NCBI GenBank assembly: GCA_947383695.1 | Contig: OX376642.1 | Location: 620,001 to 684,000 of the forward strand | Length of the DNA stretch: 64,000 nt | Origin: Actinomycetes bacterium | GTDB taxonomy: Bacteria > Actinomycetota > Actinomycetes > Nanopelagicales > Nanopelagicaceae | Direction: 5' to 3' | In this document: piece after piece, positions 27,589-29,316 of the stretch | How positions within the stretch are numbered: position 1 is the stretch's first letter | Layout of the letters: every line of letters starts with the position of its first letter | Notes under the pieces: generated by a model | What the model was told of the DNA's origin: nothing | The model's input: only the letters and a program-made list of their open reading frames with translations | Databases searched by the model: none | Program-made: the position numbers and the translations under genes

Positions 27589-28116
27589 GTGAGCCACGAA
27601 ATCAATGGTGCAGGGATGCCCGATGGATGGCAACGCTTATGGGCACCACATCGTCTTGAGTATCTACGTGGTGAAAACAGACCATTAGAAGGCAATGATG
27701 TCTCTTGCCCGTTCTGCGAGATCCCTGCGATGGATGATCAAGAGGGTTTGATTGTTCATCGAGGAACAGCGGCTTATGTAGTGATGAACCTGTACCCATA
27801 CAACCCGGGACATCTCCTGGTGTGCGCCTTTAGACATGTTGCTGATTTAACTGATCTAACTGATGAAGAACGGAATGAAATTTCTGCACTCACCTCACAT
27901 GCGATGAAAACGATTCGCAAGGTTTCATCACCTGAAGGTTTTAACTTGGGGATGAATCAAGGAGCAATATCAGGTGCTGGAGTAGCTGCACACATTCACC
28001 AACATGTTGTTCCTCGTTGGAGTGGAGATGCAAACTTTATGCCGATCATTGGAAAGACAAAGGTGTTACCGCAACTGCTTCATTTGACTCGAGATGAGAT
28101 CGCAGCAGCTTGGTAG
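27589..28116 (+). CDS. HIT-family nucleotide hydrolase/phosphorylase
   Basis: 175-aa histidine-triad protein. A CPFC pair (Cys40/Cys43) near the N-terminus is followed by the nucleotide pocket VVMNLYPYNPGHLLV and the active-site triad HIHQHVVPRW. The homologue between thrS and pgsA in Mycobacterium (Rv2613c) is an Ap4A phosphorylase; the same activity is inferred. Start is GTG 27589, 3 bp after thrS. Its stop abuts the stop of the convergent EF-G-like gene. Confidence 0.88.
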   Translation: MSHEINGAGMPDGWQRLWAPHRLEYLRGENRPLEGNDVSCPFCEIPAMDDQEGLIVHRGTAAYVVMNLYPYNPGHLLVCAFRHVADLTDLTDEERNEISALTSHAMKTIRKVSSPEGFNLGMNQGAISGAGVAAHIHQHVVPRWSGDANFMPIIGKTKVLPQLLHLTRDEIAAAW

Positions 28117-28698
28117 TTAATTAAGTTCTTCTATGTACCGCTTCACGATATCTACACCGATTCCTTTTTCAATCCACAGTGGAATCGCTGGAAAAAGCAA
28201 TCCGGCAGGAAAAGCTTGCTCCCCAGAGCTTTGAAGCAACTCCAAGTACTCATCTCTAAACTCTTGAACCAGAGTTTGATGCTCGGGATCACTCATTCGG
28301 GTTGTCGGTGGCGTAGTTGAATAATCGATGATGGATAAATCCGCTAAGGAAATAAGTGCAACAGGTAGACCGTGTTCATCATGCAAAACCAAAAATGGGG
28401 TAGCCATCGGAGAGAAAACTCGATTTGCGATCATCACTGCATCATCAAAATCAGCTTCTTGTTTTTCCAAATGTGTGACCACAACCAGACGTGGAATTTG
28501 AAACTCATCGAGTTCGGTCCATAAATCAATAGTCTCTTGATCCACACCAGCAGATGGATTTATGGCAAATATCGCCAAATCACTATCGCTGTGAACTTCT
28601 TGGGTAAAGACACCGTTAAAGGTTTTCGCCACTAGTTCAGGCTCAGCGCTGGCATGGCCGTAGACATGAATCATGCCCTTGGTGATTTGTGTTTGCAC
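28117..28698 (-). CDS. Degenerate EF-G-like GTPase-domain protein
   Basis: 193-aa protein that reads as a shrunken EF-G G domain. LAIFAINPSAGVDQETIDLW, then IPRLVVVTHLEKQEADFDD corresponds to the region around G4, and LLFPAIPLWIEKGIGVDIV to the end of the G domain. The P-loop is absent (its place reads YGHASAEPELVA), the DTPGH G3 motif is missing, and NKxD is THLE, so GTP binding is unlikely. Domains II-V of EF-G are absent. GTG start 28698 is fixed by TAGGCT 6 nt upstream. Function unknown; it interrupts the usual HIT-pgsA adjacency on the opposite strand. Confidence 0.7.
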   Translation of the reverse strand: MQTQITKGMIHVYGHASAEPELVAKTFNGVFTQEVHSDSDLAIFAINPSAGVDQETIDLWTELDEFQIPRLVVVTHLEKQEADFDDAVMIANRVFSPMATPFLVLHDEHGLPVALISLADLSIIDYSTTPPTTRMSDPEHQTLVQEFRDEYLELLQSSGEQAFPAGLLFPAIPLWIEKGIGVDIVKRYIEELN

Positions 28699-28704
28699 TG
28701 GGTC

Positions 28705-28710
28705 AGCCTA
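28705..28710 (-). promoter_or_regulatory. -10 element for the EF-G-like gene, leaderless on GTG
   Basis: TAGGCT on the minus strand, 6 nt before GTG 28698. It shares 2 bp with the plus-strand -10 of pgsA. Confidence 0.5.
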
Positions 28711-28714
28711 CGAT
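28709..28714 (+). promoter_or_regulatory. -10 element for pgsA, probably leaderless
   Basis: TACGAT, 8 nt before the ATG at 28723. It overlaps the opposite-strand TAGGCT by the two bases at 28709-28710. Confidence 0.45.
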
Positions 28715-28722
28715 GGTCCTTG

Positions 28723-29316
28723 ATGTTAAGCGCACGTTTGAAGCCAGCGGTCACTCGGGTAATTACCCCCGTGGCAGCTTTTGCACTGCGTCGAGGGATC
28801 ACACCGAACGCGGTTACTTGGGTTGGGGCGATAGGCGTTGTCATCTGCGCGCTGTACTTCTATCCACGTGGAGATTTTTTCATCGGAACCTTAGCGATCT
28901 GCATCTTGGCCTTAAGTGATCTCTTTGACGGAACTATGGCGAGATTATCGAGCGCAGGTTCTAGCAAGTGGGGTGGCTTTTTAGATTCGACTATTGATCG
29001 GATCACCGACTCATCGATCTTGCTGGGTGTTTCAATTTATTTAATAAATCGAGATGATCTATTGGCGTATGTAGTTTTGGCGACACTAGTGACAGGGTTA
29101 TTAGTTCCATACATTCGCGCTAAAGCAGAAAGCTTTGGAATCCCTTGTTCTGGAGGAATCGCAGAACGAACTGAACGTCTCATTATCTCCCTAGCCGCAA
29201 TTGGTTTTGATGGTTTGGGCATTCCATATGTTTTGGCAGCTGGAATGTGGGTTCTCGCGATATTAGGTTCATTCACCGTTATTCAAAGAATGTTAATTGT
29301 AAAGCGAGCGATCTAG
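28723..29316 (+). CDS. pgsA: CDP-alcohol phosphatidyltransferase, probably phosphatidylinositol phosphate synthase
   Basis: 197-aa membrane enzyme. The CDP-alcohol phosphotransferase motif is present: SDLFDGTMAR, then GGFLDSTID, with all conserved Asp residues. Its place before the PatA-like acyltransferase and PimA corresponds to Mycobacterium PgsA1, which condenses CDP-diacylglycerol with inositol-phosphate; this is inferred by synteny. The start at 28723 (MLSARLKPAV) is preferred to 28654, which would run through the divergent gene's promoter. Its stop lies 1 bp before the acyltransferase start. Confidence 0.87.
   Translation: MLSARLKPAVTRVITPVAAFALRRGITPNAVTWVGAIGVVICALYFYPRGDFFIGTLAICILALSDLFDGTMARLSSAGSSKWGGFLDSTIDRITDSSILLGVSIYLINRDDLLAYVVLATLVTGLLVPYIRAKAESFGIPCSGGIAERTERLIISLAAIGFDGLGIPYVLAAGMWVLAILGSFTVIQRMLIVKRAI

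Follow-up and report, generated by a model that had tools for sequence, protein, structure and literature searches.

An EF-G2 remnant at the HIT-pgsA locus of Nanopelagicales, a candidate nucleotide-independent ligand of the ribosomal stalk

Introduction

To our knowledge, EF-G2 (EFG II) itself has no settled function, and its role in actinobacteria is the question on which the protein described here bears.

The EF-G2 of M. smegmatis is without ribosome-dependent GTPase activity (PMC9067457, PMC3832671). The negatively charged G-prime region, which contacts the C-terminal domain of bL12, is conserved in EFG II (PMC3150367). In M. tuberculosis EF-G1, E221, E225 and E228 are named as the contact with bL12 (PMC8446442), and uL12m touches the G-prime of both mitochondrial EF-G1 and EF-G2 (PMC8203779).

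The gene under study lies in a stretch of 64 kb, referred to below as the window, of a 1.43-Mb single-contig genome whose closest named relatives include Candidatus Planktophila. Its product has 193 aa, roughly a quarter of the ~700 aa of EF-G2. No description of such an EF-G2 remnant was found in the open papers searched.

Results

The short reading frame is related to EF-G2 in sequence and predicted fold

The gene occupies positions 28117 to 28698 of the window on the minus strand and starts with GTG. Residues 39-155 of the protein matched positions 102-218 of the EF-G2 model NF009377 of NCBIfam (E 1.9e-19), with a score of 69.6 bits, which is below the curated cut-off of 890 of this full-length model. 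The best match in a sequence search of the PDB was 9k0z (E 2e-11; 6e-16 with a profile), M. smegmatis EF-G2 bound to the 70S ribosome according to the structure-library description. In the Pfam scan the GTP_EFTU match was sub-threshold. A Pfam match to Polbeta (E 0.06) was under its cut-off and was taken as chance, and no match to the FusB profile was produced by the Pfam or NCBIfam scans. A separate EF-G is encoded elsewhere in the genome, by a 701-aa frame at contig position 1,209,558.

AlphaFold2, given an input alignment of 56 genus-level sequences, predicted an EF-G-type fold for the 193-aa protein (mean pLDDT 93.1, pTM 0.89). A Foldseek search with this model returned EF-G, M. smegmatis EF-G2 and RF3. 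The best E value was 1.5e-11, to EF-G, and the TMq values within the top ten, led by EF-G and M. smegmatis EF-G2 on the 70S ribosome, were 0.65-0.82. The predicted fold is thus that of a translational GTPase G domain with a G-prime subdomain. The first-pass annotation had proposed homology to the EF-G G domain without DTPG, with THLE at the G4 position and without domains II-V, and alignment and profiles confirmed this. It had also named a different fold as the outcome that would count against the proposal, and the model and Foldseek spoke for the translational-GTPase fold.

The G-prime core is retained and the GTP-binding motifs are lost

Alignment with full-length EF-G2 assigned residues 10-27, IHVYGHASAEPELVAKTF (28618..28671, minus strand), to the beta1/P-loop/alpha1 segment, whose counterpart in EF-G2 reads NVVLVGHSGAGKTTLVEALL. 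The G1 motif GxxxxGK[ST] is gone, GHASAEPE standing in place of the GHSGAGKT of EF-G2, and GK[ST] is absent from all short homologues in the family of the window protein. An earlier reading that there is no P-loop is therefore right for the motif; the segment itself is degenerate rather than missing. What is deleted in the same alignment is the part from switch I to switch II, and with it switch I and the DxPG of G3.

The following part, beta4-alpha3-beta5 of the G domain (28462..28581, minus strand), ends in THLE at G4 according to the alignments, where EF-G2 has TKLD. The NKxD motif is therefore not present, and this position varies across the family. The last strand with the G5 region and the C-terminal helix, LFPAIPLWIEKGIGVDIVKRYIEELN, make up residues 168-193 (28120..28197, minus strand; alignment and AlphaFold2). 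Domains II-V are absent, as the match to the EF-G2 profile stops near position 216-218.

Between these parts lies the G-prime core, residues 83-160 (28219..28452, minus strand), delimited by conserved columns and the AlphaFold2 model. It consists of the DFDD helix, the TPFLVLHDEHGLPVALISL strands, DYS and helix A; that is, the DFDD helix, four strands and helix A of G-prime were kept. The EF-G2 helices between helix A and the G5 strand are deleted. Helix A (residues 138-158; 28225..28287, minus strand) is acidic, with E139, E146, D149, E150 and E153, as judged from the model and the alignments.

Column conservation was computed over 28 sequences that cover most genera of the family. G-prime was the most conserved part, with 2.8-2.95 bits per column at residues 83-118 (the DFDD helix and the first strands), against 1.86 bits for the former P-loop segment and 1.14 bits for the linker. 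Residues F84, L103, V104, H106, G110 and Y126 of G-prime were invariant, and W60, D83, E146, F147, E150 and P173 were also among the invariant or near-invariant residues. The net charge was -12 to -24.

With the P-loop, the switches and G4 all lost, GTP binding of the EF-G type is not expected from the motifs. Translocation would be impossible because domains II-V are absent.

The gene is EF-G2 reduced in place

The gene is flanked by a HIT-domain protein (27589..28116, plus strand) and by the divergent pgsA for a CDP-alcohol phosphatidyltransferase (28723..29316, plus strand), both identified by Pfam and locus comparison. The ORF list had placed the start of pgsA at 28654. Distant pgsA homologues begin to align at residue 22-24 of that ORF, and ATG 28723 agrees with the homologues and with the leaderless promoter described below. 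From the sequence, the start is probably ATG 28723 and the listed one too early. The two divergent genes are therefore 24 bp apart and do not overlap.

The arrangement thrS-HIT-[gene]-pgsA-acyltransferase, with pgsA divergent, was found throughout the order. The ancestral locus was thrS-HIT-[EF-G2]-pgsA-acyltransferase-pimA, and in many other actinobacterial families the slot between HIT and pgsA, conserved neighbours of the ancestral EF-G2, is filled by full-length EF-G2. HIT and pgsA had been taken for genes that are normally neighbours. This did not hold, since EF-G2 sits between them in many actinobacteria, and an insertion between the two was rejected on the ground that EF-G2 is ancestral in the slot.

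Within the same family, a genus (g23, L086) has full-length EF-G2 in the slot, a 749-aa frame with P-loop, DTPGY and TKLD intact. An intermediate of 323-329 aa without P-loop is present in genus g21 (L098 and L099), and in the other genera of the family the product of the slot gene has about 190-220 aa. EF-G2 in the slot elsewhere and the g21 intermediate indicated that the gene in the window was reduced from EF-G2 in place. The earlier suggestion of a descendant of EF-G2 is thus borne out by synteny, profile, structure and intermediates.

L098 and L099 carry a C-terminal extension of ~90 aa in which a likeness to EF-G domain V was noticed by eye. A domain V remnant at this C terminus was not supported: the scores with the domain-V profile (3.7 and 1.9 bits) did not exceed those of shuffled sequences (up to 6.2), and Pfam gave no EFG_C hit in L098 and L099.

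A predicted promoter is shared with pgsA

In leaderless actinobacterial promoters, TANNNT stands close before the start codon. In the intergenic region, TAGGCT (28705-28710) lies 6 nt before the GTG of the gene, and TACGAT on the plus strand (28709-28714) lies 8 nt before the pgsA ATG. The two putative -10 boxes overlap and have TA in common.

The 11-mer that spans them, CATCGTAGGCT (28705..28715, given on the minus strand), occurred once in the window against 0.01 expected. It was identical in 63 of the 74 aligned loci of the order, and in 59 of the 63 it stood 5-8 nt before a start codon. The element was not found near the start in L086, g21, g26 (L095) or other families; a match in L213 was chance-like. 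Synonymous change was reduced at the first codons of both divergent genes, to 0.14 and 0.12 against about 0.33 and 0.37. From this invariance across loci, CATCGTAGGCT looks like a divergent leaderless promoter for the EF-G2 remnant and pgsA. A promoter of its own had been predicted for the gene, and the invariant leaderless -10 element supports this, as one that is shared with pgsA.

The gene is near-universal in the order and under purifying selection

In a search of the order, 277 of 296 genomes gave a match at E <= 0.001. By hand count a homologue was present in 264 of the 296, including one full-length EF-G2 and the four g21 intermediates; this number leaves out genomes that matched ordinary EF-G only (E around 1e-4 to 1e-7). 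Among the good genomes the hand count was about 105 of 108. Three good but fragmented genomes (G101, G244 and G282) gave no match.

The matches listed in this search had no internal stops, with the exception of a fragment in G008. In this 41%-complete assembly the gene (L023) is split into two frames, which may reflect sequencing error or decay. Genome G305 contains two copies of the short gene, L103 (G305:C9) and L060 (G305:C15). The second of these closely resembles the copy of g25, which may be due to contamination or transfer.

For close pairs, dN/dS by the Nei-Gojobori method was 0.04-0.16 and mostly <0.1. The values resemble those of pgsA and the acyltransferase and are slightly above those of HIT. 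Synonymous sites were near saturation between relatives. The low dN/dS indicated that the gene is maintained as a protein. Descent from EF-G2 and strong purifying selection across the order are, in our judgment, close to certain. The retained function proposed in the first-pass annotation is in agreement with this selection and the near-universal presence in the order. Frameshifted copies in close relatives had been named there as the sign of a pseudogene; relatives were intact, with one frameshifted copy, in the 41%-complete assembly.

EF-G2 was also shortened in a second order

Shortened EF-G2 at the same locus was also found in families f31, f36 and f29 of a second order, in open frames of about 200-490 aa, next to sister genera with full-length EF-G2. 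The shortened copies (L184-L192, L201, L205 and L207-L213) have different ends, several with part of domain II. Most truncated proteins kept about positions 95-215 to 95-275 of the EF-G2 profile. L201 (377 aa) and L205 (476 aa) have the P-loop and are without domains III-V, so that truncation preceded the loss of the P-loop there.

The number of truncations was counted on a locus tree of thrS, HIT, pgsA, the acyltransferase and pimA, with taxa outside the family as outgroup. An irreversible count required 11 truncations, and 8 when nodes with <95% support were collapsed, all events included. In a gene tree of only 122 columns, several truncated copies of f31, f36 and f29 grouped together and L086 grouped with the full-length EF-G2s; this G-prime tree is too short to settle the number of truncations. 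The grouping is what would be expected if the truncations were not independent, that is, if a truncated copy had spread by transfer or recombination, or if paralogues had been differentially lost. However, the truncated copies are on long branches, and long-branch attraction is the likely reason for their grouping. The domain extents also vary by lineage (frames of 201-491 aa, some with part of domain II or the P-loop), and synteny at the EF-G2 locus is unbroken. We consider such non-independence improbable, and it concerns the recurrence only.

Discussion

The window protein is real, conserved, descended from EF-G2 and under selection; its mechanism is what we infer. The results suggest that the remnant is useful to the cell without GTP, and the factor-binding stalk of the ribosome is the probable site of action. 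By way of its conserved G-prime core the protein would dock on bL12 or, alternatively, on the GTPase-associated centre. It would there modulate the access of EF-G and other translational GTPases; in slow-growing cells it might, for instance, serve as a brake or an occupancy factor. Such a modulation of factor access is the effect that we favour. The first-pass annotation had suggested a ribosome- or factor-binding decoy, a candidate role that the conservation of G-prime favours. The ancestral EF-G2 would already have done this job at the stalk without GTP hydrolysis. We propose that a GTP-independent ancestral job would explain the repeated loss of domains III-V and then of the P-loop. A ligand that binds the stalk independently of nucleotide also fits the absence of ribosome-dependent GTPase activity from M. 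smegmatis EF-G2.

In our own alignment, the three bL12-contacting glutamates of M. tuberculosis EF-G1 correspond to E153, S157 and E160 in the 193-aa protein. Acidic residues stand at these three positions in 68, 43 and 75% of the 28 family sequences, the middle one being Ser in the protein itself. The mapped glutamates are partly kept, and the support for a bL12 contact is therefore partial. The deletion of the second part of G-prime, the helices after helix A, in the family counts against the stalk model, and conservation in G-prime may reflect the needs of folding alone. For the mechanism of the window protein, the stalk is a tentative choice, which we hold at somewhat less than an even chance. 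The explanation as a whole, a reduced EF-G2 that acts as a nucleotide-independent stalk ligand, comes nearer to an even chance without reaching it.

Other readings of the gene were weighed against the same evidence. The losses of the P-loop, the switches and domains II-V would also be expected of a leftover frame that survived by chance after the role of EF-G2 was lost and is slowly decaying, and the frameshifted L023 and the three genomes without a match would agree with it. This is largely refuted by the dN/dS of 0.04-0.16, as in pgsA and HIT with synonymous sites near saturation, and the intact frames, the mean pLDDT of 93 and the conserved start and promoter also speak against it; we regard it as extremely improbable. 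The invariant promoter element, the depressed synonymous change at both 5-prime ends and the order-wide linkage to pgsA could instead point away from the ribosome, to a protein-protein adaptor that ties phospholipid and PIM synthesis (pgsA, acyltransferase, pimA) to the growth or translation state. However, the linkage is ancestral, as full-length EF-G2 was already there beside a divergent pgsA, and compact genomes often have shared promoters. Conservation moreover falls on residues of EF-G2 G-prime and not on a new surface, and an adaptor off the ribosome appears unlikely.

The partner could also be another translation factor (EF-G or another translational GTPase) or a factor-maturation protein. 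An EF-G2 fragment could retain surfaces that face other factors, and the role would then be FusB-like or chaperone-like without FusB homology. The lack of a FusB profile match in Pfam and NCBIfam, and the known part of the G-prime subdomain in stalk contact, make this less probable still than the adaptor.

The simplest account would give actinobacterial EF-G2 a role on the ribosome that is independent of GTP, and the family of the window protein would have kept only the part needed for it. In its widest form, stand-alone nucleotide-free stalk ligands would have arisen repeatedly from EF-G2 by shedding of domains, and actinobacterial EF-G2 itself would be conserved for binding the stalk independently of GTP rather than for translocation or recycling. 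We consider this wider claim doubtful.

Evolution has seemingly run a deletion series on EF-G2, in which these abundant, streamlined freshwater bacteria and several other lineages keep mainly the G-prime half, under protection by selection. This points to a minimal functional piece of EF-G2, and the question of EF-G2, GTPase-silent in mycobacteria, becomes testable with a protein of roughly 190 aa. The locus also offers a clear example of a pseudo-GTPase derived from a translation GTPase, with the full-length and intermediate forms still present at the same place.

Comparison with known systems

The likeness to FusB-type EF-G-binding proteins is one of concept only: a small protein with an effect on the EF-G and ribosome cycle. 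The Pfam and NCBIfam scans gave no sequence similarity to them, and in the Foldseek match to 9ghc, which contains FusB, the matching chain was EF-G.

RF3 (prfC) has a G domain with a G-prime insertion alike, seen in the Foldseek matches to 2h5e and 3vqt. The match is weaker, and the window protein is without the release-factor domains and the catalytic motifs. EF-G (EFG I) gave Foldseek TMq values up to 0.82 and has the acidic helix A of G-prime in common with the window protein. Identity in the structural alignments was mostly 12-17%, and from its sequence the window protein, unlike EF-G, would be neither a GTPase nor a translocase.

The closest system is EF-G2 (NF009377; 9k0z of M. smegmatis and 1wdt of T. 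thermophilus), which has the same locus and the same G/G-prime fold. The window protein differs from it in having 193 aa and not about 700, in the loss of the P-loop, switch I, switch II, NKxD and domains II-V, and in its shortened G-prime. What it retains are the strands and helix of EF-G2 type, LPLHADDG..DYS..DPEH...
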